From assembly GCA_951640195.1 (NCBI GenBank), contig OX621163.1, positions 3,100,001 to 3,164,000 on the forward strand: a stretch of DNA of 64,000 nucleotides, read 5' to 3'. Below, in pieces: positions 87 to 58,498 of this stretch; the first letter of the stretch is position 1; each line of letters starts with the position of its first letter. The translations under genes and the position numbers were made by a program. A model generated the notes under the pieces. The model was not told the DNA's origin. It searched no databases and saw only the letters and a program-made list of their open reading frames with translations. The DNA comes from Porpolomopsis calyptriformis (taxonomy: Eukaryota; Basidiomycota; Agaricomycetes; Agaricales; Hygrophoraceae).

Positions 87-890
87 TCAAAATATACAAC
101 TGCTATTGTCACGAGTGATTCCCTCATTCAAGAACTTCAATAACCCTTCCATGCATTCGAGTTGGGGGTATTCCGGTCCAAAATAGCTCGGTAAGTGGAT
201 TTCCGCCGCGGAAAAGGTGAAAGGGAGGATATCGGCCATCCCATATTCAGCGTTGTTCAACATGACGCCTAATCCGTACGTCATTCCTGAACCTCTCCTT
301 CCTGACTTTCTCCCCTCCTCCGCACTTGTCTTCAAGTGATTGACTATGTCCCGACACTGAACGTTGCCACCCAATTTCTTAATGTGTACCTCGGTCGCTT
401 GAAACATTTTTTCCACATGGGTCGGCGCCGGGCGTAGCTTTAGATGGATACAAAGAGCCTCTCTGTACCCTCGTTCGGGATCATCGTCGATGTCGAGGGC
501 TTCCAAAGCAACAGCTTGGATCATCGCTAGATGTTTGGTGGCAAACGCACGCATGGCTGCGATAACCATCTGACCCGAGTCATGTAGAGAAAGGCTGGGT
601 AGGTCAATGCGTGAACACTCTCGTTTGTGCGTCGATTTCCAAGCCTTATTTTGGCATTCGACGCTCTGCAACCGGCTTGATGAGCCATGGCCAAGGTGGA
701 ATTAGAGGTTTCCACGTACGCAATACATGAATATTTTACATGCTGAACATCTCTGAAGTTTGACGCCCTCGCCCTGAGGCTTGTGGCAATGTTGGCACTC
801 TGTAAGAAGGTGGATGGTGGGATGTACATCGGGCCGTTTGCTCATAAGCGCCGAGGATACGTGGTAAGCGGGGTGAGTTTCAGTGTCCAT
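87..890 (-). CDS. MYND-type zinc-finger protein
   Basis: Two exons on the minus strand, separated by a 54-nt intron (719-666, donor GTACGT, acceptor TTGCAG). Splicing joins CSACKIFMYC to SVECQNKAWKSTHKREC and so completes a MYND finger: CxxC in CQHCHK, CxxC in CSAC, then the Cys and His-Lys-x-x-Cys ligands across the junction. MYND fingers bind zinc and usually mediate protein-protein contacts. The finger lies near the N-terminus, followed by about 175 residues I cannot assign. The start is uncertain: I chose the ATG at 890, but in-frame ATGs also occur at 983 (upstream) and 845 (just before the finger). The partner or target of this protein cannot be read from the sequence. Confidence 0.7.
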
Positions 891-2519: not shown

Positions 2520-3493
2520 TCAAATTATGCACCCAGTCGCTTCATATTGGTTGAATGCCTCTAATTGTTCACTGTACGGTGGAACAAACATATCAATGTG
2601 ATCTTTCCAATCATCAGCTTTCGTCCAATCCACTGTCCAAAATGCCTTAATGGATTCCCAAAACTCGGGATACCACCCACTTTGCTGCCAGTCAATGACT
2701 CCCAAAACCTCGTCGCTTGTGGCAGAGATCATGATGTTGCCAGGGTGTAAGTCAGCATGCGTGAAGATGATCGAGGTCGCGGCTGAGAACGCGGTGCGGA
2801 GAGTTTGGAAAAATAGATGGTCCGGATATCCTGGAATATTTTTACCGAGCGCCAACAACGCGTCGTTAAACGCTTCAACGGAGCTGAACGGGCCAAGAGG
2901 GTCGTCTCGACCGTCCCACACGTGTTCGTATACCCGTCCACGATGGATACCGCCTAATAACGATGGTCAGGAAATATAAGGGTAGTGTGTGATCGAGGCT
3001 GACCAATATACACATTTGCAGGATCCTGTTTCATGTGTCTCATCGACTCAACCATGAGATTCAACTGGTTTACTACCGCCAGTTTCTCGGGAGGGGCGAG
3101 CGAAGGCCATCGCGTCTTTAATGTGACGCCTTTGATGTATTCCATGTAGATGAACCTCTCGCCATCGTTCACGCACCAGCCATATACTTTCGGAACCCGC
3201 ATGCTCGTCGCGCGGGAGAGCAGCCAAAGCGTCTGCCCCTCCGAGACAGGCGTGCTAGAAGTATTGCCATATTTGACGACGAGGTCAAGTGCTGGGAACC
3301 ATACAACACGCTGCGTCCCCCAACTGTTCTCCTTGAGAACGACGATGTGGTCCGCCCGGGCTTGGCGGATTTCGGCAGGGGAAGGCAGAGGTTTAGTTTG
3401 AGTCCAATTGTCGAAAAATTCAGTGGCACCGTTTGGAATGGAGGATTCGTCAACAACGTCGTTTGGACACGCCGCGGAGAGTATGAATGACAT
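2520..3493 (-). CDS. Aminoglycoside-phosphotransferase-family (APH) kinase-like protein
   Basis: Two exons (3493-3004 and 2953-2520; donor GTCAGC, acceptor TTAG). The protein has the APH/choline-kinase fold signature: a Brenner-type catalytic loop FTHADLHPGNIM, with the catalytic Asp and metal-binding Asn, followed by a DFG-equivalent in GVIDWQQSGWYPEFWE. An N-lobe Lys lies in LVVKYGN. This family is large in agaricomycetes and its small-molecule substrates are mostly unknown, so no substrate is assigned. Antibiotic resistance should not be inferred from the family name. The gene is followed closely (44 bp) by the TSC10 homologue on the same strand. Confidence 0.85.
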
Positions 3494-3579
3494 ATTTAGT
3501 CGGAGAATGAATTGAGAGTGCCGAGTTTGGGCTCTATCACACAGGGGTATGAGTGCTTAAACTGGTATATGGGACTCAA

Positions 3580-21837: not shown

Positions 21838-22485
21838 TTCGGTGCATCCTCGTATTGCCTTCCTAGTCCACTATGGTGCATGCCACATCATTCTTCCCTC
21901 AGCCAATCCCTCCCCGCGCGAACATTGCCGCTCTCAAATCACTCGGAGTCCGTGCCATCCTCGCCTTTTCCGCCGTCGGCTCGCTTCGCGAAGAGATCAC
22001 CCCGGGGCTCGTTTGTGCTACCCGCCCAGATTATCGATCGCACGAAGGGGGTTCGCCCGGCGAGTTTCTTCGAAGGCACGAGTGCAGTCGCGCATGCGGC
22101 GTTTGGTGATCCCTTCAGTCTGAAACTTGTGGAATGCGTTGGAAGCTGAAGGGAAGGGTGTGCGTGTGTTCACTGAGAAGTGTATACGGAAGGACCCCAA
22201 TTTTCGACGAGAGCGGAGAGCGTAATGTATCGATAGCGGGGCGGTGACTTGATCAATATGAGCGTCTTCCCTGAAGCCAAGTTGGCGAGGAAGCAGAGCT
22301 TAGGTGTGTTTTGGTCATTTGTACTATGTTCTCATTTAACGGAGGCTAAATGCTTCCCTAGCGCAGTTACGCTCTCATTGCCACAGCAACTCTTGACGTC
22401 CCCATTCCAGTTCCGTCACCGTCACAGACGTTTTCGACACTCTCAAGGTGGATACCTAATCTCGTCACAGTCGCATTTGTGTTAG
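21838..22485 (+). pseudogene. Broken second copy of methylthioadenosine phosphorylase
   Basis: A degenerate direct copy of the MTAP gene at 26,023-27,166. The nucleotide similarity is obvious from the segment that in the intact gene encodes [12 protein letters not shown] through [13 protein letters not shown]. The copy has one-base insertions (near 21,915 and after CCCCGGGG near 22,006), a roughly 22-bp deletion after GAAACTTGTGGAATG (near 22,137), an in-frame TAG where the intact gene has CAG (near 22,234), and it lacks the 5' exons and most of the last exon. At one site it keeps a better family match than the intact gene (TKGVRP versus TKGGSRP). It lies 280 bp upstream of the Crinkler gene. 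Confidence 0.85.
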
Positions 22486-22762: not shown

Positions 22763-25700
22763 ATGCTCGAACTCAACTGCTTGCGTATTGGTGATTCCCC
22801 AAAGCGAACCTTCCCTGTCAAGATTTACGAGGGGAAGACCGTCGGTCATTTGAAAAAAATGATCAAAGAAGAGAACAAACATGCATTCGCCCACCTTGAT
22901 GCTCCCGAGCTCAAGCTTTTCTTGGTGAGCGGTCTTGACTTTGGCGGATTCCATATGCTTATGGTCGCCCGACAGGTATCCATCCCTTACGATGATATTG
23001 AAGCGAGTCTACGAGATGTTAAAGGTCCGACGGGAATCCCGGGGACTCAGCTAATCCGTCCCTTTGACAAACTGAATGAGTACTTTCCTCAACAACCCGA
23101 GTATCGCTACATTCACATCCTTGTGTGGGCGCCTGAATTTGGTACTTTGCTCTCCATTCTTTCCCATGTTGACGATCACTGATGCCCTTGTCTTTCACCT
23201 CACCCCAATCTAATCGTGTTATTTTTCCTGTGTACTTTGCATCATTGTCCCTGTGGTTCACTTTCTGGACCCTTGTCTTTCATGTTACCCCCGTTCCCTT
23301 CATCCATTCCGACGTTAAGCCAACATCACACCGAGGGGTCATACCTTCGATATCGAGATGATTGACCAGCGGGTCAAAAAGGAGCTCGAATCGCTTCGCG
23401 TGGTGGTTGAGACATTTCTGAAAAGTCCCGAGCCAGCCACCTGGGTTCCTCCGGACTATGCTACGCCCGGTAACCGCGAATTTCTTGCAAGTCTTCGAAT
23501 ACCATCTTATCGCAAGGGCAACCCAAGCCTTTTATTTCATGATCTCCATGTGTGCGATAGTGATAAAATCAAGAAGACATTTGGAAATGCTAAACACCTG
23601 TATGTAGTGATTACGTGTGCTTTGAACCCTTCTCACCGGCTGTAGGTGCCTTTGCAACACGTCTGGATCGGGGAAAACACGGCGCATGTTAGAAAGCCTC
23701 ACGATATACTGGGGATTCTACCTTGTCGCAGCTCCAGATATCAACGGCGTTGGCGTCACAGATTTGCAGGACGCCTTGGCCGGAGTTCATGAATATTGTG
23801 AATGGGTACCCGACCTTCATAAACTACCTTCCGAGGAACGCGCTGGTCAAAGCGAAACCAATGGTCTGATTGCATCTAAGCTCCTTAAGAAAGTCCTGGC
23901 TGCGCGGATAGTGGTTTTCCAACTGTTCCTAGAGCTCGCGATCAAGGTCGATGGGGAATTGCTAGAGAAGCATAAGCGCATTTGGTTGCTGTTCCAGTTG
24001 TCCGATGAACTTCCTCAAGCCACAACCTTGCATCCATTTGTTCGGATTATGAGGAATTGTTTTCGCCAGGCCTCCACTGAAGCTCTTGACATATTGATTG
24101 AACGCCTTGGTACCACTCGTCAGAAATATATGCCTCTCACGCACTTCATAATTGGGCTGGACGAAGCACAGCAGGCCATCAGATCATATTCCTATTCCTT
24201 CGTATCATCTATGAACGACGAAGTAACTCAGTCAATCCTCCGCGAAATAGTTAAAGTCTTCACCAAAATGCCGATCAAGCTTGTTGTGTCAGGTACAGGC
24301 GTGTCGCTGGAGGATCTATATGAAGGTATGGCCTCTGGGGTGTCAAAACCTTTTGGAGAGGTTGAATTCTTCCACAAGCTTGGGATGTTCGATACCTGGC
24401 CCAAATTGAAACCCTTCCTCGAACGTTACCTTCCTGCTTCCTTTTTTGAAACACCTTCTGGGTATCTCCTGCAAGCACGGATCCGGGAATATCTTGTGGG
24501 CCGGTGAGCCAGACTCTTTCATTTTAACTGACAGTCTGTCTGACTGAGAGCAGATATGGCTTCTCCGTATCCTTTCTGGAGTTCTTCTTGAGGAATGGGC
24601 TGGAATCACCGCACAAATTGCTGAATGCATATATCGAAGCACATACGGATTGCCCCCCAGGCAACTCTGGTCTTCAATTTACTTCGAATGAGCCTGAGCT
24701 CCGCGTCATAGTCGATATGAGTGGTTTTGATTGGGGTAGACTCCAGAAGGGTAAGCTTGTCCTTCAGCCTCCATTTCCTCCTTTGACGTACCTCAGATCC
24801 GGTCGCACTTCAAGAAGCAGCGCAGATTATACAATCTCACTTGACTAAGGGGGAATCTCCGACATTTGGGCCTGTCACTGCCCGACTTGTTGAGTATGGG
24901 CTGGCTTGTCTCCGCGATAGACACCAGGGTCAAATAGTCGAACCACTTGCATTTCTGTCACTGATGAAGTGGCTCCAGAACCACCCCAATCTCAATCTGG
25001 AAGCAAATATGCGATCACGACTTGCTTCTCAGCCTTCACGTGGAGCTGCTTACGAGGAGCTGGTCATTCTGTACCTGCTTCGGGCACTGTGCTCCCCAGT
25101 CCCCTTTAGCACAATTTTCAAATTTCACGGTACCGTTCCTCCGTGGGCTGACGAAGTGACCCAGATCGTTGGACGCCTCGATGGGACCGCTGTACCTGTG
25201 GACGTTCTAGGAAAGGCCCCACAGAACCCGGGTGTCTGCGTGGTGCATTACGCGGCCAATATTAACGATGTTTTACAGTGGATTGAAAACCCGATCACCA
25301 TGCCGGCGGTCCTTGTTCCCCAGCACCTCTTTGGCCCGGACGTTATGGTACGGTGTGGGGATGTCCTTTTGATGGGCCAACTCAAGTCTTACACGGAGGG
25401 TAACAAACAAGACCTCGATGCAAAAACGACCAGCGATGCTCTCACTTCTCTGCATCCAGACCACTGGTTTAAGAGTTCGGTACGTCCATTGGTTTCATCC
25501 TTGTGCCCAGCTGTTGTACTCAGCTCGATCTGAATCTTGTGACAGCCACCTCATCTACGTCAGAAACTCATCCATGCCATAGAGCGGCATCGTGTCCTCC
25601 GCTTCGTGGGTGGCTACCCACTTCCCCCCAACCTCAGCTTAAGGGCCGATTCTGTCAAAAAGGCTCTTGCTGCACTCGGAAAAGACGTTGTGTTAGCCAC

Positions 25701-25824
25701 CATCCATTTGGATGCCTTCAGAGCCCACTTCATCACAGAGGATCAGGCCAGGGATGTCCTTGGACCAATGGAGCATGCTCTTAACAAGAAGCGAAAAGCA
25801 GATGAGATGGATAGCGGAAATTGA
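22763..25824 (+). CDS. Crinkler-type (CRN/CR) protein: header + P-loop NTPase + PD-(D/E)XK-like nuclease
   Basis: Intact, about 874 residues. The header (22763-23141) is ubiquitin-like: MLELNCLRIGD, VGHLKKMIKEENKHAF, DAPELKLFL, ending YIHILVWAP. I infer a 51-nt stopless intron at 22925-22975 (GTGAGC...GACAG); removing it gives LFLVSIPYDD, like the LWKVSIP of CRN headers. The other introns are 23142-23319, 23600-23645, 24504-24553, 24751-24796, 25480-25545. The NTPase has Walker A NTSGSGKTRRM and Walker B HFIIGLDEAQQA. The C-terminal part has the nuclease-like helix GAAYEELVILYLLRAL, then GPDVMVR and LLMGQLKSY (Asp and Q-x-K). The end is basic (NKKRKADEMD), a possible nuclear signal. Relatives are nuclear effectors or conflict proteins; the role here is inferred. 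No secretion signal is visible. Confidence 0.85.
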
Positions 25825-26022
25825 TAACAAAAATTCTCACTTTCGCTCAACTAGTGTTATTAAGGACGAAAATATATTTTTACTACTAAATTCCAAGCTT
25901 TCAGAGCCTATGCCAGCGGTAGCCTTTTTAACCATAGATAACAGCCTTGGAACACGCCTCCTTCAAGCTCAAGCGCCGTCAACCAAACACGATTGCAACT
26001 GACTCTCTACCGGAAACCAATA

Positions 26023-27166
26023 ATGACTGAAAATGGTGGGGTGAAACTTTGACAAGCCCACAAGCTGACGTTTTACTCCAAGTTCTTGTCGGTGTCATTG
26101 GCGGAAGCGGGTTATACCACTTGGACAACCTCACATTCGTGTAAGCACACCACTCTTAACATCCCGCTCCAATTCTCATCCGCCCCAGTAAACATGTAAA
26201 CCCTGAAACGGTGGGCTTATTCGCCATCATGCACACCATTCCAGTCATTTCACATCAGTAAAATAGCCTTGGGGACACCCCAGCTCTCCGATAACCATCT
26301 CCTCCCTTCCTTCCGGTACTCGTATCGCCTTTCTAGCCCGCCATGGTGCAGGCCACGTCATCCCCCCCTCAGCCATCCCCTCCCGCGCGAACATTGCCGC
26401 TCTCAAATCACTCGGAGTCCGTGCCATCCTCGCCTTTTCCGCCGTCGGCTCACTTCGCGAGGATATCACGCCCGGATCGTTTGTGCTGCCCACCCAGATT
26501 ATCGATCGCACCAAGGGGGGTTCGCGCCCGGCGAGTTTCTTCGAAGGCACAAGTGTAGTCGCGCATGCGGCGTTTGGCGATCCCTTCAGTCTGAAACTTG
26601 TCGAATGGTTAGAAGGGAGAGTGAGCAAGGCGTTAGAAGCTGAAGGGAGGGGCGTGCGCCTGTTCACTGAGAAGTGTATCGTGTGTATGGAAGGACCCCA
26701 ATTTTCGACGAGGGCGGAGAGCAAGATGTATCGACAGTGGGGCGGCGACTTGATCAATATGAGCGTCCTCCCTGAAGCCAAATTGGCGAGGGAAGCAGAG
26801 CTTAGGTGATGTTTTTGGTCGTTTGTACTATGTTCTCATTTAACGAACGCTCTTTGGCGCAGTTACGCTCTCATTGCCACAGCAACCGACTATGACTCTT
26901 GGCGTCCCCATTCTAGTTCCGTCACCGTCACAGACGTTTTAAATACTCTCAAGGCGAATGCAGACACGTCTCGTCACGTCGCAGCCACCATCCTAGACGA
27001 GCTTGTCGAGGCGGTAGCTGATGACAAGGGTAACGCCGTTGCGGAACTGCTTTCTGAAGAGGTCGGGTCGATGGAGCTCTCTATCATGCCTCGTTCAGAC
27101 AAGCAGAACCCGGAAGATAGGAAAAAGCTCAGTTTCATTTTACCCGAGTATTTTAGAGAGTACTAG
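26023..27166 (+). CDS. MEU1: S-methyl-5'-thioadenosine phosphorylase (MTAP)
   Basis: Phosphorolyses methylthioadenosine to adenine and methylthioribose-1-phosphate (methionine salvage, polyamine by-product recycling). Five exons join in phase to 311 residues: 26023-26035 (13 nt), 26083-26140, 26189-26210 (22 nt), 26267-26805, 26863-27166. Motifs: [10 protein letters not shown] (phosphate loop), KHVNPET joined to [71 protein letters not shown]. The tiny first exon (MTEN then G) was chosen because no in-frame ATG exists directly upstream of VLVGVIGG and the GTGGGG/CCAAG splice restores it. One residue is inserted in TKGGSRP relative to the usual TKG(I/V)RP. A decayed copy lies 4.4 kb upstream. 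Confidence 0.9.
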
Positions 27167-43069: not shown

Positions 43070-44540
43070 CTAAGATGTTTCTGGAAAGGATGCGGCAGGA
43101 ATGTTACGGCACTGCTTGGTGGCGGCGACTAAGAAAGATTTGGGGATCAAATCTTGTTCTTCCTGGGTCACAGATCCTTTACTGGATTCTTCAGGATTTG
43201 AATGCGCGTTGCAGAAAGCACATAGAACGGCAGTCATCATTCTGGCCGGGGTTCGGGAATGGGTATATTCCGGTACGGCTGGCCGGTGCTGTGGTTTATG
43301 CGTAAAGGGTCCTTCCAATGCTGCTGACCAGGGATCCGATGTTTGAGGAAAGAGCGGCCCAGGGATCAGGAGAGTGGCCTAAACACACCGACAGACACAC
43401 ATGTAAAGAAGAACTACTAAGCTTACTCACCAGTCGCTCATGGCACTGATCTACCGGGCGAAGTGAAGAACCTGCATTCTCGCAAGGATCAGGCATGACC
43501 CACACGGAAAGACCTTCTGCGGACAGCCCCAAGGCGCCTAACTTGGGCTCAGAACGAACGGCCCACGGTCTTTTCCTTTTTTCGGGTTTTCCTCTTAGCA
43601 TCGTTCACCTGACACCAGTCTCGTGAGTGGATACCAAGCGCATCGATATTCCATACTAGTAAGAATCCGTTTAATTTATGACGTCGCCACAACCAAGGCA
43701 CACACACCTTTCCAGAGGACCCAGTCGGAAATCCGGGACAAACTTCATGGTCGAGGTGAACGATTGCGTTCCACCACCACCACCATCAGTTGATACCGGC
43801 CACATGATAGCAGTCACGGGGCGCTAGTAGAGAGCTAGGAAGGATATTGATGTGTTTGGCGAAATGAGGCCACCTCGCGCGTTTTGAGACAAAAAGGCTA
43901 ATCCAGTTCGACCGACTATGGAGCTGCGAGCTCTGTACAATATCCTCGAGTTAATGGTACCGACTTCTCCAAGCGTCTGTCTCTTGAGGTAAGGGCCGGC
44001 CACGATGGAGCGGCATCTAACCGACGAAATGTAAAACACTCCTGGGTCTTGTGTGAATACCGGTGAAGGTGGGATATAATGCGACTTGGCTCCCTTTACA
44101 TATTCTAAGTGTTATGATTGGCTGGTAGTCCGACGACTGGCTTACGCTGGCACCCTGACGATAGATCTTCACGTCGCCGTCGGCCTTTGGAATGAGGTTG
44201 ACGATATCGCGGTGTGTCTCATCGAGTTGGACGTGAACATTTGCGTGAATGGAAGGTTGTAACAAGACACCCAGAACTATCGACTGAGAGGACGGTTTGA
44301 AAAGTAGGCTGAATGGTTGCGATAGGTAGCAAACGTCGGGTGGTGGACATCATCAAGGAGTCGGCAGTAACTGAAAATTGAAGGCGACGCATTCTATAAG
44401 CTGCTCGATGTTTGGCCGAAATCTGGTCGTAACTCTGCCCTGCGACCCAAGCATGCAGGTCGCCCCTGAACCTGCCTATTCTCGGTGTAAGGATCTGTTC
44501 ATCCAGCGACGTAAAGATTTCAAGGCTAGCTACAAACATG
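43070..44540 (-). CDS. Uncharacterised multi-exon coding region
   Basis: Several minus-strand stretches read like protein and are bounded by plausible splice sites. They include MFVASLEIFTSLDEQILTP and FRGDLHAWVAGQSYDQISAK (44540-44300), SIHANVHVQLDETHRDIVNL and IPKADGDVKIYRQGAS then GTAAGC (about 44,260-44,150), STMKFVPDFRLGPLE then GTGTGT (about 43,800-43,710), LGALGLSAEGLSVWVMPDPC (about 43,540), and CAFCNAHSNPEESSK (about 43,210). I could not assemble one continuous frame and recognise no domain. It may be one gene, two genes or a decaying gene. Confidence 0.3.
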
Positions 44541-44610
44541 ATGTTGACGTATTCGGAAAGCTCACGGCCACTCCAAGACCTATTCCCTACGGTAGCGAGG
44601 AATAAAATGA

Positions 44611-46762
44611 TCAGTAATGGGATGATTGATATGATTTAATCTTGTGCAATGCCTCTCGTGCGGAGGGTGCTGCTGAATCCTGCATCCACTTCCCCAGATT
44701 TTGCAACTCTGATGAAACACCCACTACTCGAGACTGGGCAATCAGCTCTCCAGCACCCCACATATCCACCTCTGCACCGTGCCCATCAGCAAAAATGTGA
44801 GGGGAATGACTTCTCTTAGTAAAGTGAGGTAGAGCCTTCGTAGGAGGGGCTGCTGCATCTTCCCAGTCAATGAGAAACCATCCACGTGGATCGTCGAGGC
44901 GTCGGATGACATTGGGCCAACAAATATCTCTGTGAAAAAGTGGAGGTGCTTGATGGAGAACCTGCTGCAAGTCAATAATTTATTCCTGAAATTCACCACC
45001 TACGCACCTCGAGTGCCTCTAAGACACATATTAGGGCTTCTAACAGTTCTTGCTCGGTTCCCGGCAGCTTGGCAATTCCTCGTGGGTCAAGGACAAGTGT
45101 CGTATCGAATTGATCCATGAGCGAATCAACATGTGGAACATTCTTTTTCGCAAGAAAACGATATATGTTCTGTAGGTGTACAACACGCTGAACCTTGTCC
45201 GGGCTAGTGTAGGTTTTGACAACACAATGACCTGCGATCTCAACATCACTGTTATCCCTAGTATGGATATAGAGATCAGACTTTGAAAAGCTTGAAAGAA
45301 ACAGTGAAAGAACCGTGTTGATATTTCAAACTCGGCATCAGAGGGCCGGACAAGGTCGGCCAGAGATTGGAAGAGTCCTGAAAGGTTAATCAAGCGGCGG
45401 ATGTTCCTGATTCGGTCTCTTCGGAGGCTTAAATTTGCGTACGCTATGTTATGCACGACTGGGCGAAATCGTTGTGGTGGCGGAGGGCTAATTGCTACTA
45501 GTGTCAGGTTTGGTCCTTTGGCACAGTAACCTATCAATGTAGCAACCAGAAGATACTATCAGAGAAACCTAGCCATCTAGCCATTATCAACTTACCAAGA
45601 ACATAAGGGGCGGGCGTATATGCCCACGCAAGTTTATCTGCAAGTTCTGACTTTGGATTATCTAAGCTCCCAGGTGCTTTCTCCTCCCCTCGGAATGGGC
45701 AAAGCTTGCTTAAGAGGAAAGCATAAGCTGGACGCAAGGACTCCGTAGCAGTGTGGTTGCTGCTATTACGTATGCTCGCCCCAGAGGGAATAATGAACTC
45801 TAAGACTTTGCGAATGTTTTCATCCCAGAAGTAATGGAAGGACTCTTTAGTTCCATCTCTCGGGGGTCTCTGCACCACAGTCGAGTAAAATTGGAAGAAT
45901 CTTGGGTCATGATGGCCTTCGCGGAACAAAATCTTAACATCGTCGGAGGTACAGATATCGTAGGTTTCAAGAGCGGAGGAGACAAGCGCTTGCATGTGTT
46001 CGGCTGGGATGGGTATTTTCTCGTCATCCGAAAGCGGAAGATCTACAAGTCTGGCGAGTTCGGCTATCGTTGGTAGTTCTGACTGGATGTGGTTGGACCT
46101 CCATCGTTCAATTACAAGAGAACCATCATCTAAAGTTTTTTTAAATGAGCGGAATGCAAAGACAAAGCAAATGGGAAAAAGAGCTACCACTGATTCGGAT
46201 CCGTTTTGATGGTCGCTCTACAGGGACAGATTATGCGAGTCCGGAAGAGAACATTGAGGTTGGAAAGTGAACCACAGGGACAATGATGCAAAGTACACAG
46301 GAAAAATAACAGAATTAGATTGGGGTGAGGTGAAAGACAGGGGTATCAGTGATCATCAACATGGGAAGAAATGGAGAGCAAAGTACCAGGTTCAGCCATA
46401 GGGGGCGTCTCCACCAGGATATGTAGGTAGCAATACTCGGGCTGTTGAGGAAAGTACTCATTCAGCCTATCCAAAGGATCCATTGGCCGGGGCTCAAATT
46501 GGGTCAGGTCTTGGAGTGGCGCTTTGATATGGTCGCGAGGGATGGACACCTGTCGGGCAACCATAAGCATATGGAACCAGCCAAAGTCAAGACCGCTCAC
46601 CAGGGAAACCCGGATTGAGGGAGCATCAAGGTGGGCGAATGCATGTTTGTTCTCTTCTTTGATCATGTTTTTCAAATGACCGACAGTCTCCCCCTGGTCA
46701 ATCTTGACAGGGAAGGCTCGCTTTAGGGGATCGCCGAGGCGCAAGCAGTTGAGTTCGAGCAT
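44611..46762 (-). CDS. Crinkler-type protein: header + protein kinase domain
   Basis: Header MLELNCLRLGD...VGHLKNMIKEENKHAF...YLHILVETPP (46762-46387) resembles the header of the Crinkler at 22,763, including a likely 51-nt stopless intron (46600-46550). Intron 46386-46218 follows. Then come PSKRIRIS (basic, possible nuclear signal), a helical domain (IQSELPTIAELARLVDLPLS; FYSTVVQRPPRDGTKESFHY) and a C-terminal kinase. The kinase has CVVKTY (ATP-site Lys), catalytic loop LFHRDICWPNVIR, DFG-equivalent WFLIDWEDAA and HGAEVDMWGAGELI, ending at 44611. Catalytic Asp and Asn are present, so the kinase could be active. CRN-kinase fusions are known in fungi and oomycetes; whether this one acts on host, rival or self is not shown. 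At least five introns. Confidence 0.8.
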
Positions 46763-47430: not shown

Positions 47431-50142
47431 TCCTGCTCAATATATCTGAATGAGATGTGTCTGTTAGCCTCATGTTAGACTCACAATGGACGACTGATAC
47501 CCCAAATATCAAGTGGATAACTGAGGATGGGCCGACCTTGCCCATCCGACTACTCTTATATACATGATACGGTACCCTATACCCTAATGACTAATCAGAG
47601 ACCGTAAGTAGTACTGACTACACGGTTAAACGGAGCTGGCTAAGCTATCACAAATCGAGATTACATGATCTGATAAATCTAGGCAAAGAAACGAGATAAG
47701 AGAAGGATGACCAACTATGACCAAATAGAGTACGTCTGCGGACCAGGTGACCAGTCCCGGACACGTATGGCACGGAATGCGATCGTAACACCTCAGGCAT
47801 TGAAGCACAAGGATATACTTACCCACGACAATGATATCACCACGGTTACCGCTACCTCTTCCCATGAGAGGTGAGAAGCAGCAAAATGTGAGTTGATCAC
47901 ATTTGTGGTTATGATCTCGATCTCTTTGAGTCGAGTGCTCCACATCCTAGTCCGAAGTATGGGGTATCGAAGGAATGGGTCACAAGCGACTTGAGCATGT
48001 TCATAACGCCGGACAGCAATTAGTGTTTTGACGGTATTCGCGGCACGCAACTGCAAGATGTAATCAATTTGGGCAGGGACAGGCATCTCACTTTCGTCCA
48101 AGGCAATCAGAACTTGACTATTCCCAAGGTGCTTCGATGATATTGCATATGTGATACCGTCAATGGTCAAATGAGATAGGAAATTAGTGTGGCGTGGCGG
48201 GGTGACTCTGAGGAAGGTAGCCAGGGCCTGATGTATGCTCTGAGGCATTGGGTGCGAGTTGTATTCATTGGAATCATTCGCAGCTTCATCTTCTGTGTCC
48301 TGCGCTACAGCAGATAAACTAAGGATATCAGTGATGAGCGTGTTGCGGACTTGTGGGTCCAGGAGTTTCTGGAACATCGGCTGGCAGTGTTTCATTGCCT
48401 GCGGACAACTAGACTTTGATAAAATGCCCTGCAGATTGGTAGATCTGGTGAAGGAGTGAGACATGGTCTCTTCAAATTCTCCTGGTCTATAATTGGTAGT
48501 GATCCGCTGTAGTACACCAATGAGCCTCTCAAAGGGAAAGGTCCACCATGCATGAACAGGGCCAAAGAGGAGTAAATATTTGTGGAGGTGGAGCACCATA
48601 TGATGATTAGGATGGAATTTATAATTGGGGAAAATCATCTTGATACCTGCAAGGTACGCTTGCATGTGTTGCAGGTACAAATCAGCGTGCGCAGGTGAAG
48701 TGACACGAGAAGAGGCAACAACTACTGCAGAAAGGAGTGCCATTGTAACATCCAATATTTTACCACACCTATCTAACTGGTTATTGCCCAACTCCACCTT
48801 AGCCCAGAGCTGGACCAGGGAGATGGGAAGATACATGGTACCAAGGACACGCCACTGGTCTGCCTTGAGCTTTCCATGGCTCGGGGAGCCCAGGTTTATG
48901 GGCACTGATGTCAACCATGAGGGAGTCACCATAGCATCAATGTCAGACTGCAATTGTTGCAACTCCTTGACTGTGAGAACATGGCCATGCCTCACCAAAT
49001 GAGTCTCCTGTTCCTGTTGAGCAACACGCTATAAATACTGATTAGTCTTAGAAATGCGAAAGGATCATTCAAAAGTCATACCCAAGTGATGAGTGCGTCA
49101 ACCAGGTCAGCCTTTCTCAGCCTGGTTTTCCGTGATTGCCCTGCAATTGAGGGTTCGCAACGCAGTTCAGAGCAAGCGAAACTGAGTACTCGTTAATGTA
49201 ATGTCAGAAACTTTTTCTTCCATTCTAGACGACCTGAATTTGTGGCGAGGCTGGCACTGAGGGGTGACCGGAGCCATTTGAGCAGTTTTTTTGTACTCTT
49301 CTATTCATTCTTCGAGAATGCTTCCCAGCTATCGGAAAAGGAGATTTGTAATACAGTTTTCTCCTCCTCCTCCTTGTCAAGGCGGATTCCAAGGATGCCG
49401 TCAAAATGTTCCTTGATCAGACCCAAGAAGAGATTGTGCATCGCATCAAGAACGACGAAGCGCGTAGGGTCGAAGTAAGGTAGACAAAGTAGTTCTGACC
49501 AGCGCACACCAGACTCAGTGAATGCCATCAACTGTTCTTTGGCGTCTGATGCATTCTGGTATTTTTTGGCAGCAGCATAGCAATCTTCTCTTGTACGTCG
49601 TCTCCATGTATGATATTCAGTATTTCCATAGCCATGTTTGCGTCTAGTACAGTGATATATAGAACAAAAGTGATTGTGAGAACAGGCCGCGAAGCCAGCA
49701 GTTTTACGAGCGGCAGGTAGGTCGCAAACGAGTGCAACAAGGGCGCAGCGGACCAATCTTCCATCCCAGCATTGCTGTGTTTGCGAGAATCGTACGCCCG
49801 GCTGCCAGAACTCTAAGAGGTCATCGACGAGGGGGGTGAGGTAATGATTGAGGGCATCCAAAGGGGGTTCACGTGGACCTGGGACGACACCAGCTAGGAA
49901 CATGTTTTCAGGTTTGTACCTGATATCTGGTGGGAGATTCAGGCAGAGCAAGGAGATCATGCCCACCAACATTTTCTGACCTCCTTGTTTGTTGGTCAGA
50001 GGGTTGAAGAAGTCGACGCATAACGAGAAAGTGTAGCGAGCTTCATCGCCGCCCAAGCTGAAGGGTGTCTTGTCATCGGGACCTTTGAAATTCTGAAGGA
50101 CATTCCCATCAAATATATCATGCATCTTCAACCCGTCGCCCG

Positions 50143-50147
50143 GGTTC
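50143..50147. repeat. Target-site duplication, left (GGTTC)
   Basis: GGTTC immediately before the 5' LTR; an identical GGTTC follows the 3' LTR at 57114-57118. A 5-bp duplication is normal for Ty3-type integrases. Confidence 0.9.
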
Positions 50148-50305
50148 TGTCAGAGATATATTTTTTCTTTTTCCTTTGCTTGTCTGTTCCTATTTACATC
50201 AGATAGTTTACATCAATAGCCGCTTAGCCACCCAAGCTCCGCTTAGTAATAGAAGGTGACCAAGCCATATCTATATTTAGTCTACCATCACTCTCCTTAT
50301 CTACA

Positions 50306-50371
50306 TGACTCATCCATAGTCGTTACGACTCACACGTAGTCAGTATGACTCATACTTAGCTAGTATATAAA
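50306..50371 (+). promoter_or_regulatory. LTR promoter: Gcn4/AP-1-type sites and TATA box
   Basis: TGACTCA occurs at 50306-50312 and 50346-50352, with a variant CGACTCA at 50326-50332, spaced 20 bp apart (about two helical turns). TATATAAA lies at 50364-50371. TGACTCA is the consensus of Gcn4/AP-1 bZIP factors. The 3' LTR carries the same three sites. Confidence 0.6.
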
Positions 50372-50395
50372 GCTAGCAGTAGATAGACTTAGGAT

Positions 50396-50407
50396 AAGTC
50401 TGTTTCT
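50396..50407 (+). promoter_or_regulatory. Predicted mRNA 5' end that serves as self-primer
   Basis: AAGTCTGTTTCT, 32 bp after the start of the TATA box. It is the exact reverse complement of the 12 nt directly after the 5' LTR (50507-50518). In Tf1-type elements the first nucleotides of the mRNA fold back, are cleaved and prime minus-strand synthesis; the position here fits that model. Confidence 0.75.
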
Positions 50408-50506
50408 TTCGTTAACACCCCAATCAGTAGTCTTCCAACCCTTTAAAACCCTACACCCAGAGCCTGAAGTAAAACCTTGCGATCAACCCTAGACTGCCGT
50501 CTAACA

Positions 50507-50518
50507 AGAAACAGACTT
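50507..50518 (+). promoter_or_regulatory. Primer-binding site of the self-priming type
   Basis: AGAAACAGACTT begins at the first base after the 5' LTR. It does not begin with TGG, as a tRNA 3'-end complement would, but pairs perfectly with 50396-50407 in the R region. Confidence 0.75.
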
Positions 50519-50686
50519 CCTTCTTGCTCACTCCACGCTATACAACCCCTACTCTGTCTGGCCAGTGCTGAAGGTCTTCACCCACGAGATCAATTTCACC
50601 ACCCAGACATTAACATCGATTAGGCTTGCTCTCTCCCCTTGTATTCCCGTCAAGCCCCCCAATATCCAACTGCCACCGTTCCACTA

Positions 50687-52090
50687 ATGGTTTTGACTCG
50701 TTCATCATCCACTATCCCTCACCCTGCTATCCCTCTCTCCCAGGAAGGCTCTCTCCCTCCTGCCCCAGCTCCCATCCTCGACGAGACGGTTGACCCTGCC
50801 CAAGAAGAAGAAGAAGAAGAACAAGAAGAACAAGCGGGTCCCTCTCACTCAAAAGGGAAAGGTCGAGCTGAGGACAATGATGAGGATGAAGAAGAAGATC
50901 CACGCGTAGCCTTTGAGATCATGAAGCAGGATTATCAACAATTGCTGCAGGTCCAACAAGACCAAGCGCAAGCGAGTCATAGAATTGAACAACAACTTCA
51001 AGTATTGATGGCCAACCTCATAGGCCCCCAACCTGTCCCTGCCCCTCTTGGGCCATTTCCCCAACCCTTCCAAGCACCCCCAGTATTCCCCCAACCTGTC
51101 CCTGCCCCTGCCCCTGCCCCCGCCAAGATCAAAATGAACCCTCCTGACAAATTCTCTGGTGATCCCACCAAGCTTTGCAATTTCCTGTGTCAAGTGAAGC
51201 TGAACCATTTGGGACGACCAGGAATCTCAGAGGCTGACAAGATTATCTATGCCTTGTCGTTTATGATCGGAGGAAATGCAGAACCATGGGCTGAGCGTCA
51301 AGTAGACGCTTACACAACGTTGAACTGGGTTGGTGCCGATTGGGCTGTCTTTGAACAAGCCCTCGCCTGAGACTTTGGAGACTTGGACCCCAAGTCAACT
51401 GCTCAACTGAAGATCAAGGACGTCAAGCAGTTCAACAAGAGCGCAGAGGAGTATAACATCAATTTCAATCGATGGGCCTATGATACTGGATACGGACAAG
51501 AAGCTTCGACGACTTTATATAAAGATGGACTCAACCCCTCCCTTTTGTGACAGATCTACCTCTCAGATCGTCAACCCACCACCCTCTTTGAATGGCAGTC
51601 TCGTGCTGCTGAACTTGACAGACGACATCGAGAATTTCTGGCTAGAACATCTTCTAAGCCCCAGACTCGCAACACTCGCATCACCAACACCCCCTACTGA
51701 CAAGGACCACCTGCTGGTCCCTCCACCTATTCCAACCCTGCTGCCCCCAGAATCAAACAAGAAGAAAAGCCTGCTTCACTAGGAGGAATTCCCAAAGGAG
51801 CATGTTTCAACTATAGACGATTTGGCCACTTTGCCAGTTCTTGTCCCAATGCTCCTAGGACGAGTACTTCTGGTTCTGGAAGCCGCCCCTTTACCCCAGC
51901 AGCTAGAGGTCGTGGAGGAAAGAAACCTGGTCGAGGAAGAAACATTCGAGTTCTGGAGACCTCAGCCTCGATTGAGGAGGTCAACTCCAATGAAGATTCT
52001 CGTCAAGACTTCGAGAAGTGTGGTATCGTCAACTGGGAGCCTAAGAGGAAAGAAGAGCTGAAGAGAGCTTTGGAGAAACAGGGTTTTTGA
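50687..52090 (+). pseudogene. gag of the chromovirus (three in-frame TGA)
   Basis: Starts MVLTRSSSTIPHPAIP (ATG 50687). An acidic Glu run, a Pro/Gln linker and the capsid region follow (KMNPPDKFSGDPTKLCNFL, NAEPWAE, DFGDLDPKSTAQLKIK, EWQSRAAELDR), then a zinc knuckle and an Arg/Gly-rich end. The knuckle reads CFNYRRFGHFASSC: the second Cys ligand is Tyr (TAT for TGT), so it is probably dead. TGA stops at 51368, 51548 and 51698 each fit an original CGA Arg codon by context. The frame ends at TGA 52088 directly after a frameshift heptamer. Full length would be 467 residues. Confidence 0.9.
52081..52087 (+). promoter_or_regulatory. Programmed -1 frameshift heptamer between gag and pol
   Basis: GGGTTTT read in the gag frame as G-GGT-TTT, exactly the X-XXY-YYZ pattern, directly followed by the gag stop TGA. 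A one-base backward slip continues as GGG TTT TTG AAC, which is the pol frame. Confidence 0.7.
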
Positions 52091-55000
52091 ACAGTCCGGA
52101 CAATAGCTCGTGCGTTGCGGACTCCTTTTCTATGTGTACCACTACCCCTATGCAATCTATTTCCCAAATTCTTGGTGCACTTGATTCGAGCGAAGAAGCT
52201 TTAACCATACCCCTTTGGTTGGAAACCACAGACACTGGTAGACGAATTGCCGCCAGTGCATTGATAGACTCTGGCGCCTCTGGATGCTTTATAAACTGGA
52301 ATTTCGTGCAGGAGCGCGATATCCCTTTTTATCGATTGGAAGGACCAATCCCCATGCGGAACGCAGATGGGACAGACAACCGAGGAGGTCCCATCGAATA
52401 TGCTGTAGACCTGTGGATGGAGATGCCAGATTTTCCTAGGGAACGAACCCATTTGGAAGTGACAAATTTAGGAGATATGATACAGGTTATCCTTGGCTAC
52501 CCGTGGCTCAAACGTAACGATCCCCTGGTTGACTGGAAGGCTGGAACACTGACTTCACGTCAGACTGTGGCCCCAACCAAGACTTCTCAGGCTGGAGTGA
52601 TAGTGTCACGAGTAGGCTCTATGTTGAATGGCGACTCCTACGCCAAGATTATCAGATTGGTCTCACTGGGAGACCATGCAAGACCCACTACCGTGGAGGA
52701 AGATATGAAGAAGTATGTGCCGAAAAAATACTGGAGGCACTGGAAGGTGTTTATGAAGACCACCTTTGATGAACTTCCCCCACGACGACCAGAATTTGAC
52801 CATGCGATCGATCTCGAACCTACCTTTAGGCCCAAGATCGGAAAGGTGTACAAACTCACTGAGTACGAACAGGGAAAGCTGAATGAATTCCTGGAGGAAC
52901 AACTTGCAAGTGGACGAATACAACAATCAAACTCCAAACAAGCTGCCTCGTTCTTCTTTGCTGCCAAAGGTGAAGAAGTTAATGCCCAAGGACAAGATGC
53001 TGGACTACGTCCAATCCAAGACTATCGCTATCTGAATACTCACACAATCCCAGACGCCTATCCCTTACCTCTCATCTCTGAGATTATTCAACAGACCAAG
53101 TTATCAGAAGCGGAACTGTTCACAGTCATGGATATCCGATGGGGCTTTAACAATATTCGTATCAAAGAAGGAGACGAATGGAAAGGAGCCTTCAACACTC
53201 GATGAGGGCTGTTCGAGCCCACCGTTATGTTCTTTGGAATGCGAAACTCGCCTGCCTCCTTCCAACGAATGATCGACGTTCTCTTCAAAGAGGTTATCGA
53301 TTCCAAGCAGGTCCATATCTATATTGACGATATCCTGATCATGGGAAAGGACCTTACTGAACTCACCTATTGGATGGAACGAACTCTAGAGATCATGGAG
53401 AAGAATCAATTGTCCTGCAAACCTGTCAAGTGCTAGTTCGAGAAAAAGGAAGTGATTTATCTGGGAATGATGATCTCTAAAGGCCACATTGCCATTAACC
53501 CCAAGAAGGTTGAGGCAATCAGAACCTGGCCTATCCCCCAGAAGAAATGAGATCTCCAATCCTTCCTTGGCACTGCCAACTTTTGGCGAAGGTTTATCAA
53601 GGATTACTCCCTGATTGCTCGTCCTCTTAATGAGCTCCTACGAAAGGATCAAGAATGGATTTGGACTCCTAGGAAACAACGTGCTTTTGATACCCTCAAG
53701 AATGCGCTTACCTCTGCTCCTGTTTTGAGAACCCCGAAGCCAGACCTTCCTTACCTTCTGGAGACGGATGCCTCTGGTGTTGCACTGGGTGCAGTCTTGA
53801 CCCAGAAAGAGAATGACGAAGAGGATTGGCATCCCATTGGTTTCTACTCCAAGACCCTCCTCCCAGCTGAACGAAATTACCCCACCTATGACCAAGAGCT
53901 TTTAGCTATCATATCTGCCTTGAATGAATGGAGATACCTCCTGCAAGGGACATGGCAACCCATTATGATCAAAACTGACAACCAGTCCCTCCAATACTTC
54001 ATGACTAGTCATCAGCTCTCCAGACGCCAGGCTAGATGGTCTGAGTTTTTAGCTCGCTTTTGGTTCAGAATCAGCTACCAGCCTAGAATCAAGAATAAGG
54101 CTGATGGACTCTCCAAGCGTCCAGATCATTACCCAGAGTCTTATGAGGAGGTGGAGGACAAGGTCCTTCTGCCAAAAGAACTTTTTGTCAATGCGCTTTT
54201 CATCAATGCGATTATCAGTTTATCGTCCCCCAACTTTTTATCCAAGCTTTGTTTTCATTCCCCCCTACCTCTCGAGATCATGGCCAAAATTGAAGATCCC
54301 TCTTCCAGATACACCCACGTAGATGGCATTGTGCGCGATGCTGGAGATCGTATAGTTGTGCCAAAGGACGTATCTTTGCGCACAGAAATTATTCGATTGA
54401 CCCACGACACACCCACTGGTGGTCATCCTGGCATTGAGAAGACGAAGGAACTGCTCCTCCGTAATTATACATGGGAAGGTGCCCCACAAGATATCACCAA
54501 TTACGTGAAGTCCTGCCTTGCTTGTCAACAGACCAAGGTTTACCCACAGAAACCCACTGGACTTCTCCAACCGTTACCCCCTCCTACTAAACCGTGGCAA
54601 CAGATCACTGCTGATCTAATCATGGAACTCCCCAATTCAAAAGGATTTGACGCTATTCTAGTTGTGGTGGACAGATTCACCAAACGGGCTCACTTCATCC
54701 CAACAACCGGAAACCTGTCTGCTAAAGGAACTGCTGCGCTATTTCAAGAACATGTCTGGAAGCACCATGGATGGCCAGAGAAGATCATTACTGATCGAGG
54801 AACCCAATTCTCATTGAAGTTTGCTACGTTATTGAATGAACTCCTAGGAACCACTTCTGGGCTTTCTACCGCCTATCACCCCCAAACAGATGGACAAACC
54901 GAACGAACCAATCAAGAGTTAGAGCAGTACGTATGGCTCTACACTAACTTCATGCAAGACGATTGGAAAGATTGGTTAGCTCCGGCGGAGTTCGCTTATA

Positions 55001-55668
55001 ACAACCGAGAACATTCCTCCACTTACCAATCCCCCTTCTGGCTTGAATATGGCTGACACCCTGACACCCCCTTATCAGTTCCAACCCAAACCTCAAATCC
55101 CGATGCCAACGAGTTTTACGTGCAGCTTACTAGAGCTAGAGAGAACGCTGAAGAGTCTCTTCAAAAGACCGCTAACTCAATGAAGCTCTATGCCGATCGA
55201 AAACGTCAAAAGGAACCCACGTTTTACGAAGGACAAAGGGTCTGGCTTGATGCCAAGAATTTGAAAACTGGCTGGCCCGCAAAGAAACTGGATGTCCGCC
55301 GGCTCGGACCTTTTATAATTCTAAAACAAGTATCGCCTGTGGCTTACCGACTAAAGCTACCGCTGTCATGGAGGATTCATCCCGTGTTTCACGTTTCGCT
55401 ACTCAAGGCTCTAGAAGAGAATCTCGATCTCCACCCCCCGATCGGAGAAGATGACAATCTCCGACCACCTCTAGATGTGATCGAAGGAGAGCCCGAGTAT
55501 GAAGTGGAACGTATCTTAAATCACACCCCAGGAAAACGAAACCGACAATATCTAATCAAGTGGAAAGGCTACCTGATAGAGGCAGCCACCTGGGAACCAC
55601 GATGGAACCTCAAGCACGCAAAAGACCTCTTAATGAATTATGAAAAGTCTATTCAAGCGGCGATTTAA
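52087..55668 (+). pseudogene. pol of the chromovirus: protease, RT, RNase H, integrase, chromodomain (four in-frame stops)
   Basis: One frame over about 1,190 codons. Protease active site ALIDSGASGCFINW; RT with PIQDYRYLN, GLFEPTVMFFGMRNSP and YIDDILIMGKD; RNase H with LETDASGVALGAVL; integrase with the His/Cys zinc region (TGGHPGIEKTK...SCLACQQTK) and the DDE triad (ITADLIME, IITDRGTQFS, QTERTNQELEQ). A C-terminal chromodomain (EYEVERILNHTP, RQYLIKWKGY, ATWEPRWNL) marks a chromovirus. Stops at 53203 (TGA), 53434 (TAG), 53548 (TGA) and 55054 (TGA) sit in otherwise conserved stretches; Arg is the expected residue at the three TGA positions. It is entered by a -1 shift from gag. Confidence 0.93.
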
Positions 55669-55782
55669 CTCTCTTTTACGAATACTACCGACATCACGAT
55701 CGTTGAATCTCCTTTTCTCCTTTTCAATCTCCGACAATTATAAGGACTTCCCCTTTCCAACAATCATCAAAAGAAGCACGAA

Positions 55783-56475
55783 ATGCCCCGTGAAGTTCGT
55801 TACGCCCGCAAGTCGACTGGGAGGCGTCCACCCCGAGGGAACCCCACCGCTTCTACCTCCAACCTCCCCCCCGATTCTTCTTCCTCCTCTTCCTCGTCCA
55901 ACAGTGTCTTGGTTACCCGACGGTTCAAGAAGCCGAAGCGACGTACCGATACTATCGACAAGCCGGGACGAAACCGTAACTATTGAGGGCTCCCCTTTGC
56001 CAAGGTTGAGCACCTATCTGGGTGTCCTGAAACCTACGTCCCATTTATTTCTGGAGCACGTTGATGCAAACTTAACTACGACTGTCACTGGTACACGTTC
56101 GACAAGGACAGCGACTTTGACGATAAGAAGAATCAACTTGAAGATTGGCTGGAGGCGTACCAAGTTGGGCGCCAACTTTTGATGGTTATACCGGACCAGG
56201 ACAAATCCGACGTCACCACCCCCACTATCCCCGAAGACCCCATCTCGCACCGCATCCATCGCGTCGCCGACCGACTCTATGCTGCCCGAAACAGGTACCG
56301 CTCAATGATGGATGCCAAGTACGAAAGGATCCTTGACCTGGAGGAGAATGCTGTGATGTGTAGGGAGCTGGCTGAAACTTGGTTGCGACGTGCCCGGGAG
56401 TTGGATGGCTGTTACCACTGGTTTGACCCAGATGGACACCTGCTTCAACCCCCAGTTTATGATGGCGCGACCTAG
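55783..56475 (+). pseudogene. Third ORF of the chromovirus, unknown function (two in-frame TGA)
   Basis: Begins MPREVRYARKSTGRRPPRGN and runs in one frame to 56475 (231 codons), broken only by TGA at 55984 and 56062. The N-terminus is basic and Ser-rich (SSSSSSSSNS, RRFKKPKRRTD). The middle is acidic and aromatic (CHWYTFDKDSDFDDKK, LEDWLEAYQVG). The C-terminal part is helical with likely coiled-coil character (IHRVADRLYAARNRYRSMMD, ERILDLEENAVMCRELAETW). It lies 115 bp after the pol stop and 280 bp before the 3' LTR, where envelope-like genes sit in some elements. There is no signal peptide or membrane segment, so an envelope role is unlikely. No family recognised. Confidence 0.75.
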
Positions 56476-56743
56476 GGACCGGATGCTGTTTCCGAACGAA
56501 CAGTATTCCTTACGCCTCCCTTCTGGATGTGTGGTTAGAGAAGGTGATATCTACTGGAGAGTTGAGGAAAAATATACCTAGTGGATAGTCTTTGATCCGA
56601 CAACTATCCACTCATCCCTCCTCTTCATCGCTCACCCATCTCATCACCCCTCTACCCACCTCTACCATCCCTTTACACCTCCCCTTGACACCCTTCCTTC
56701 GCTTCGAAGGGTCTCCTCAAAATTCAGGACGAATTTCCTTTTT

Positions 56744-56754
56744 GTGGAGGTGAA
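56744..56754 (+). promoter_or_regulatory. Probable polypurine tract
   Basis: GTGGAGGTGAA directly before the 3' LTR, mostly purine. It is the expected place for the plus-strand primer but is short and interrupted by T. Confidence 0.45.
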
Positions 56755-57113
56755 TGTCAGAGATATATTTTTTCTTTTTCCTTTGCTCGTCTGTTCCTAT
56801 TTACATCAGACAGTTTACATCAATAGCTGCTTAGCCACCCAAGCTCCGCTTAGTAATAGAAGGTGACCAAGCCATATCTATATTTAGTCTACCATCACTC
56901 TCCTTATCTACATGACTCATCCATAGTCGTTACGACTCACACGTAGTCAGTATGACTCATACTTAGCTAGTATATAAAGCTAGCAGTAGATAGACTTAGG
57001 ATAAGTCTGTTTCTTTCGTTAACACCCCAATCAGTAGTCTTCCAACCCTTTAAAACCCTACACCCAGAGCCTGAAGTAAAACCTTGCGATCAACCCTAGA
57101 CTGCCGTCTAACA
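56755..57113 (+). repeat. 3' LTR
   Basis: 359 bp, identical in length to the 5' LTR and differing at 56788, 56811 and 56828 (all C/T changes). Followed by the right GGTTC target duplication at 57114-57118. Confidence 0.96.
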
Positions 57114-58498
57114 GGTTCTTGGTGTCCCAAGCAGAATCCATCATCTTTTCGTAACCCGGCCGAGATAACAGGCTGCCAATCCAGTCTTTGAAGTCCCAGT
57201 ATACAAATGTCTTGATTGGTACTTGAATTTCGACACCTGATATGATCCGTGGCCGAAGAAGTTGCATCTTACAACACTTACCGCCGCGAAATTGTTTATG
57301 AGTGCAGCAAGTTGGATAGGATGGGATTGGAGAGTTGTCTTGGAAGGTTGGCACGTACGTTCGATGACATTTTGGGTCTGGACAAACAGCATATATAGTG
57401 CTTTTGCCATCCAGGTGAAGATGTTCTGATGCGGAACGGATATCAACTGGAAAATCACTGAGGAGCTTCTGATCTCGAGGCGACAACTTAGTGGTGTTTC
57501 GCATCAGGCTAAGTTGGATAATATATTGCAGCATAGAGAAGATAAATCTGCACCCTCGGGCTCCAATATCCAGTATAGTGCTGCATGCTACAACCATGAA
57601 AATTGATATCTGAAGCACTGGATCAATGCCCCTCAGCAAGGGCTGGAAGTGATAGCCTACAAAAAGCAAATTAATTAGTATCATCCTCTTGGTTCACAGC
57701 GAAGCCAATAGGCTCACTGGTATTGTATTTAATGCCAGGCTGCAAAGCTTGACTTTGGTCCTTGCAATGCTTCCACTTGCGGTTGGATAGCTCGAGGGCA
57801 TTCATGGAATCGTGAAGCCATTCGTAGATAGAATGTTTCATCTCCGTCACCGATGCCTCCTTGCTCACAATCGAATCAAGATCGCTTTCGAGGGAGAGGC
57901 CGCTTTGGTGAAGGCCGTTGAGCGGGTAGGCTGCATCTGTCGAAGGATATTCCAAGTGGTCCAAAGCGGTGGTTGTCTCATCCACGAAGGCCTTTACAAG
58001 TGAGTCAAGACTTGACAAACGCCAAAGCAGATCTGCTACGCGGCTCCTACAGGAATCAGGAACGCGTTTGCATGCATTATGGGGAGTGCCGGAATTTTCG
58101 ACAGTATCCTGTGGATACGACGAGGAAGACTGCTGGGAAGAGGATGGGATATTGTGATTGTTGAAGGCACTTTGTATATCCTGGAGATCAGGCTTCACTT
58201 TGGCCCATATGCGGCCAGGACCTTGGGAAGCACTGGAGACTTTATCTGCGAGGGTGACCAAAGAAAGGTAGGAAGCGATATTATCCAGTTCTGCAGCGAT
58301 GGCATGATCTGAGGCAACACGGGCCTTGTGTGCAAGGGCTGCTTGATCTTCAAGCTGGTGAAGCTTAAGTGTACGAGCGTCTACAGGGGTGCCAAGAGAT
58401 TGATTTGTTACAGGATCAGTTCCCCGTTCGGCGCATCCAAATGATGTGCAGAAGCAATTTGGCATCATGAGATAAGCGGGGTTGGGCAGGCTGGGAGG

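Follow-up and report, generated by a model that had tools for sequence, protein, structure and literature searches.

The window analysed here is a 64,000-nucleotide stretch of the Porpolomopsis calyptriformis genome (C1:3100001-3164000; 33.5 Mb in 17 contigs, one assembly), and it contains two Crinkler-type genes, one starting at 22763 on the forward strand (WA) and the other starting at 46762 on the reverse strand (WB); +n below is counted from the A of the start codon. Both genes carry the header domain by which Crinkler-type (CR) proteins are recognised, with PF20147 matching WA at 74.6 bits (E=1.2e-20, at 22763-23140) and WB at 64.7 bits (E=1.5e-17), against a cutoff of 24.6. The LxLFLAK motif of strict oomycete CRN proteins is absent: inspection by eye showed LKLFL ahead of intron 1 in WA and no LxLFLAK-like motif in WB. 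CRN N-termini without LxLFLAK have been found in surveys, according to PMC5289972. Compared with the HVLVxxP motif, exon 2 of the header ends in HILVWAP in WA, in HILVETP in WB, and in HVLVQAS in L015. A header search of a large protein set returned three candidates, none of them significant. Within the genome, 43 header matches were listed by the search and 27 header loci were aligned. Four of the aligned headers (L012, L014, L020, and L034) contain stop codons or frame changes within their exons, and these loci are therefore probably broken genes.

The header had been read as a single exon in the original prediction; instead, it appears in both genes as two exons around a 51-nt intron. In WA, on the forward strand, exon 1 (22763-22924, 162 nt, ending in phase 0, based on the PF20147 match and on lengths across the 27 loci) is followed by intron 1 (22925-22975, GTGAGC...CGACAG) and by exon 2 (22976-23141, 166 nt, phase 1), which ends just past the HILV-AP motif. 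The corresponding features of WB, all on the reverse strand, are exon 1 at 46601-46762 (again from the PF20147 match and exon lengths), intron 1 at 46550-46600 (51 nt), and exon 2 at 46387-46549 (163 nt, phase 1). We take the stretch at +163..213 as intron 1 because its length varies out of frame among the 27 aligned loci (49, 51, 52, or 60 nt, not a multiple of three in 11 of them), because the exons flanking it keep the frame in 25 of the 27 (the exceptions are L014 and L034), and because it begins with GTGAG or GTAAG and has AG at its end in every one. As deduced from exon lengths, intron 1 would be in phase 0 and intron 2 in phase 1, with splicing predicted from the DNA. That both window genes join their modules in phase 1, as had been proposed, agrees with the exon lengths and reading frames. 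The inner bases of intron 1 differ by a mean of 0.148, vs. 0.335 at synonymous sites of the adjoining exons, and they are the less different in 242 of 253 pairs from 23 loci.

Intron 2 of WA consists of a 5' part (23142-23265), common to 46386-46263 of WB and to other loci (16 genome matches including itself), and a 3' part (23266-23319) that is absent from WB and whose acceptor was placed by eye. The C-terminal module behind it, N2 (23320-25837, forward strand), is NTPase-like, with a Walker A GSGKT recognised by eye, and includes a nuclease-like part recognised by eye only. In WB, the part of intron 2 that pairwise alignment assigns as shared with WA (46263-46386) is followed by a remainder (46218-46262) common to L012 and the N1 genes but not to WA, and then by a putative mini-exon 3 of 30 nt (46188-46217), placed by eye, the sequence of which also occurs in L012, in L024, and in exon 3 of the N1 genes. 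WB may contain a predicted 30-nt mini-exon inside a stretch that had been taken as a single intron. Its C-terminal module, K (44284-46129, reverse strand), is kinase-like by an HRD...DWE pattern read by eye and is common to L012.

Module families were grouped from the open frames behind 22 headers, with later loci added afterwards. Module K is found in WB, L012, L024, L021, L016, and L027; N1 in L015, L017, L018, L023, and L019; N2 in WA and L025; F3 in L009 and L010; F4 in L013 and L022; F5 in L011 and L028, with L029, L031, and L032 matching it at 52-55% in part; and G in L026 and L030. The remaining modules are singles, and no related module was found behind the headers of L014 and L020. 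The module pieces of WA and WB gave no Pfam match, their NTPase-like and kinase-like motifs being read by eye, and L024, a relative in the K family, gave a weak Pkinase match of 16.0 bits, under the cutoff. The WA piece had no match among solved structures. The best 120 of 193 relatives of the WA module include proteins of Amanita muscaria, Amanita rubescens, and Piloderma croceum, and one N2 relative of P. croceum (P0099) bears PF20147. Distant N2-like copies are spaced about 49.3 kb apart on C16; others sit close to the contig ends of C4, C9, C12, and C13, and those on C1 fall within its first 260 kb, a pattern resembling that of subtelomeric repeats.

Several other elements lie in and around these loci. 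An LTR element at 50148-57113 of the window, with 359-bp ends that differ at three positions, is flanked by a 5-bp repeat, GGTTC (50143-50147 and 57114-57118). Its LTR end has at least 40 matches in the genome (the best 40 of 355 candidates scored), and at C12:1360626-1367608 (L042, L039) an N1 module without a recognised header in the flank examined is split by a further copy of this LTR pair. Two 83% copies of a putatively nucleoside-phosphorylase-like gene part flank WA in the same direction (21849-22475 and 26319-26983). Upstream of WB, a 318-bp piece (47472-47789) is shared with L012 and had raised a segmental duplication of these two loci as a candidate; the piece is a dispersed repeat, with 44 genome matches listed including itself, and it was therefore dropped as evidence and the duplication rejected.

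The resemblance between the two window genes in intron 2 was reproduced as originally described: 23142-23265 (+) and 46386-46263 (-) align without gaps over 124 bp from the donor GTACTTTG, with seven differences (alignment positions 18, 19, 32, 43, 47, 74, and 75; E=3.3e-49 in the genome search). The match indeed closes with an identical tail, although this is 49 bp long rather than the 44 bp given previously, and the abrupt halt of similarity inside the intron is also borne out, since the following 134 bp agree at 43/134 positions, about what is expected by chance. Within the shared half of the intron, WA and WB differ by 5.9%, compared with 13.0% in exon 1 and 29.4% in exon 2. The intron half is thus far more alike than the exons that precede it, so exons and intron are without a common history. 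The same half of WA's intron is 5.2% from L023 and 7.0% from L012. Over both header exons, the nearest relative of WB is L009 (87.0%) and that of WA is L019 (80.6%), with WB a close second for WA (exon 1 87%, exon 2 71%); for exon 1 taken by itself, the two window genes are mutually nearest, at 87%, among the 22 loci compared. These last two points speak for the proposed swap. On balance, a swap between WA and WB is not supported by these distances, given that the WA intron is equally near L023 and that the nearest headers belong to other loci; we instead read the pair as a family-wide element combined with a seam of WA's own. The first 24-26 nt after that seam resemble intron 2 of another type, present in L011 and L029, with local scores of 33 and 32, respectively, against a shuffle maximum of 24 each (400 single-base shuffles per target, 29 targets), which suggests an out-of-register join of two introns.

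Across the family, the point at which header homology with genes that bear other modules stops was placed in 26 loci: it lies inside intron 2 in 15 of them, 0-154 nt after the donor, on the exon 2/intron 2 border in two, in exon 2 in one (L028), and beyond the intron in eight. In this tally, acceptors were read by eye in few genes, L034 gave no value, and some placements were made by judgement (L024 via 14 partners ending at the donor, and L031 and L032 without their L036 match). For WA, six partners place the seam 120-124 nt past the donor; in L009 and L010, it is at 62-69 nt (90-99 nt with L020), in the F4 genes at 40 and 61 nt, and in the G genes at the exon 2/intron 2 border. WB, L012, L016, L015, L017, L018, and L023 share sequence to 195-204 nt past the donor, and the start of exon 3 is also common to them. 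A breakpoint in the intron behind the header, as originally suggested, is thus recovered in many genes, with the other loci placing it at the border, in exon 2, or beyond; a single breakpoint common to the genes is not supported, and 23265/46263 marks WA's own seam. Between close module mates (L009/L010, L012/WB, L015/L017/L018/L023, L013/L022, L026/L030, and L031/L032), homology runs continuously through intron 2, so that these introns are alignable, whereas distant members of one module family, such as L024 and WB, have no continuous intron-2 homology.

Individual recombinants were located by three-locus switch tests, with the triples picked from identity tables. L012 is L017-like at 79/79 informative sites up to +371 and WB-like at 75/82 from +373 (0/5000 permutations), so that the switch falls at the exon 2/intron 2 border and is followed by a WB-like intron 2 and module. 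It is the cleanest recombinant, yet it is probably a broken gene, because of a stop codon in exon 2 and stops in the module frame. L022 is like L024 at 60/66 sites and then like L013 at 195/235 (switch at +371-373), and L030 is like L019 at 60/76 and then like L026 at 385/405 (switch at +375-386). Less clean triples are WB/L009/L012 (63/82 and 118/125, switch at +425-447), L018/L026/L015 (25/40 and 469/471), and L016/L015/L024 (25/32 and 88/146, 3/5000).

Other loci carry one module behind different upstream parts. From L024 +381, which lies some 7 nt inside intron 2, L024 and L038 are 95.8% identical for 1.6 kb, module included, and their Crinkler headers have no DNA match to each other; the first piece of L038 matches PF20147 at 26.7 bits, and the L024 header is 95.3% identical to that of L022. 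Their join sites in intron 2 differ, the shared part of L038 beginning at the equivalent of L015 +455 and that of L024 at the equivalent of +474. The WA module recurs in L037 at 88% DNA identity from WA +580 (23342), behind upstream pieces that are SAM-like (PF07647 at 23.0 bits, with a cutoff of 20.5, and at 14.5 bits, under the cutoff), and L037 is predicted from its DNA to be a SAM-N2 fusion. In L035, an intron-2 piece that is L023-like (96%) is joined to an F4 module 90% like that of L013, and no header match was found in the 400 bp preceding the intron-2 piece. As in exon shuffling, joins lie at or in a phase-matched intron, intron 2, in L012, L022, L024, L030, L035, and WA, with splicing predicted; they are not confined to introns, as switches also fall within exons and the seam of L028 lies in exon 2.

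In bacterial toxin arrays, orphan modules are stacked behind genes. Pieces of a different module, without a header of their own, lie behind the Crinkler gene at L015 (+3286..3558) and at L035, but such stacking is not general here, L015 being the only one of 22 long-flank loci with a downstream foreign-module fragment. L024 has an inverted K piece upstream.

The predicted intron 1 is a second seam. Loci L015, L017, and L018 differ at 0 to 13 positions in a module of about 1,800 bp, whereas their first exons are 15-22% apart. Between L017 and L018, the module has 0/1800 differences, and the divergence is 21.6% in exon 1, 4.1% in intron 1, and 3.1% in exon 2. The upstream flanks of the three loci match only from about -45, and differences among them grow sparse after +162-169, i.e., at the exon 1/intron 1 border. 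In exon 1, L017 and L012 are 99% identical.

Headers are nearly uncoupled from the C-terminal modules behind them. Of 24 loci (L034 omitted; L014 and L020 have no mate), 6 have their nearest header in front of the same module. With L017, L018, and L032 dropped, header identity is 76.7% within modules vs. 75.1% between them, a difference reached by 678/5000 shuffles; for all 26 loci, the values are 77.6 and 75.4, reached by 197/5000 shuffles, so that a weak association of header and module remains. Of nine same-module pairs, selected for being alignable, seven show significantly higher divergence in the header exons than in the module, the exceptions being L031/L032 and L013/L022; the seven are not independent, since four of them lie among L015, L017, L018, and L023. 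The headers are themselves mosaics. The PHI statistic is 0.524 vs. 0.644±0.009 under permutation (0/2000 permutations; 21 of the 27 loci, 193 sites), and 25 of the 27 loci surpass all 40 column shuffles in the mosaic test (L027 and L029 do not). The intron is not supported as the sole site of exchange: the 119 header switch points fall 53 in exon 1, 12 in intron 1, 39 in exon 2, and 15 in intron 2. The 27/119 in the two introns compare with about 26 expected by length, i.e., there is no intron enrichment. Switch points that follow length indicate that conversion acts across the whole header, and that introns matter for the joining of non-homologous parts. Diversifying selection on the headers was also considered and rejected: mean pN (0.217) is below mean pS (0.335) over 253 pairs (L012, L014, L020, and L034 dropped), and there is accordingly no general excess of amino-acid change, with pN above pS in 5/253 pairs and, for exon 2 alone, in 62/253. 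The sharing of sequence, the switches, and the uncoupling are direct observations.

We consider it likely that the Crinkler genes of this genome form a combinatorial set, in which ectopic recombination between dispersed copies would re-join the first header exon, the second header exon, and the C-terminal modules. Header and module would mostly be joined at or in intron 2 (phase 1), right after the HVLV-like motif, and in one set of cases a recent replacement of exon 1 would stop at intron 1 (phase 0), where splicing would conceal the seam. The initial joins in intron 2 look illegitimate: by eye, L024 and L038 are joined at differing positions with scant sequence in common. Each join would take its donor site from the header parent and its acceptor from the module parent. 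Header and intron pieces would later be mixed by homologous gene conversion, exons included. WA and WB would be the outcome of these events, having in common an intron-2 element that WA leaves at +503. Splicing, the recombination route, and the direction and order of events are the parts that this explanation would supply to the observed pattern.

In one alternative, gene conversion would do nothing more than homogenise headers, with header-module pairs being old and fixed and converted headers looking alike up to each fixed seam. Such conversion would account for the dense mosaic within exons and for switches without intron enrichment, and the WA-WB pair fits it well, the WA intron half being about equally like WB, L012, and L023. 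As the whole explanation it is nevertheless rather unlikely, because the same module stands under different headers in L024/L038 and in WA/L037, and because the intron piece of L035 is joined to a module without a header; header conversion cannot make such joins. Selection for a function of intron 2 (and intron 1) itself, e.g., in splicing control, would make their similarity uninformative on exchange, and the low divergence of intron 1 relative to synonymous sites is in line with it. We find this improbable, however, as intron-2 similarity stops at family-specific places and continues under a closely related shared module, and the divergence of L012 from L015 rises from 4.9% in exon 2 to 22.8% in intron 2.

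Little probability, about as much as for intron function, attaches to gene duplication followed by capture of adjoining DNA behind the header, with no exchange between Crinkler genes: L014 and L020, where no related module was found, could have arisen in this way, but each of modules K, N1, N2, F3, F4, F5, and G is found repeatedly, and the headers in front of them are mostly nearest to headers that bear other modules, and sharing is reciprocal among L012, L017, and WB. Assembly chimeras or haplotype copies might be suspected from the small contig that holds L015 (111,872 bp) and from the identity of L017 and L018 across 1,800 bp, but many loci on large contigs have such joins, which lie at splice sites or keep the frame, and an artefact of this kind is very improbable. 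The combinatorial explanation can also be carried further, to introns 1 and 2 acting as recombination hinges and to exon 1, exon 2, and the modules being diverse pools that are re-dealt, even from Crinkler to SAM. In this extension, introns 1 and 2 would be more uniform than the synonymous sites of the adjoining exons, and we regard it as possible but doubtful. If it were true, this would be a fungal effector-like family with an intron-built assortment system.

In the work of Zhang and colleagues in NAR in 2016, as cited in PMC5289972, Crinkler-type effectors reportedly combine a ubiquitin-like header with enzymatic (toxin) modules. The genes described here would follow the same plan, with a Crinkler header and putative enzymatic modules recognised by eye. 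In oomycete CRN genes, header and C-terminus recombine at HVLVVVP (Haas et al., 2009, as cited in PMC3726527 and PMC5289972). Recombination at the end of the header is common to both systems, exon 2 of the fungal header also ending just past an HVLV-like motif, but the breakpoint lies at a coding motif in the oomycetes, as these sources describe it, and at an intron seam in the fungus; the word intron is absent from the main text of PMC3726527. In Phytophthora sojae (Shen et al., 2013, PMC3726527), one header is reported with unrelated C-termini and different headers with one C-terminus, and recombinants of both kinds, with short exchanged fragments, are described. The same kinds of exchange are found in the fungal genes, which differ from the P. 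sojae genes as presented there in belonging to a fungus, in having joins mapped to intron borders, and in the exchange of header exon 1 alone. Crinkler and SAM both serve as N-terminal domains of fungal NLR proteins, as reported in PMC9815663; here, one module (88% DNA identity) follows a Crinkler header in WA and SAM-like pieces in L037, within a single genome.

In a search of open-licence PMC papers, we met no account of an intronic seam in Crinkler genes. Header-module swapping is already known in oomycetes, and the intronic seam in a fungus is a variant of it, with the seam visible at base level at the introns. A seam in an intron allows the fusion to stay in frame without an exact breakpoint. 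In the very recent cases, with 0/1,800 module differences and exon 1 replaced, the rate and the route of exchange would be measurable in sister strains.
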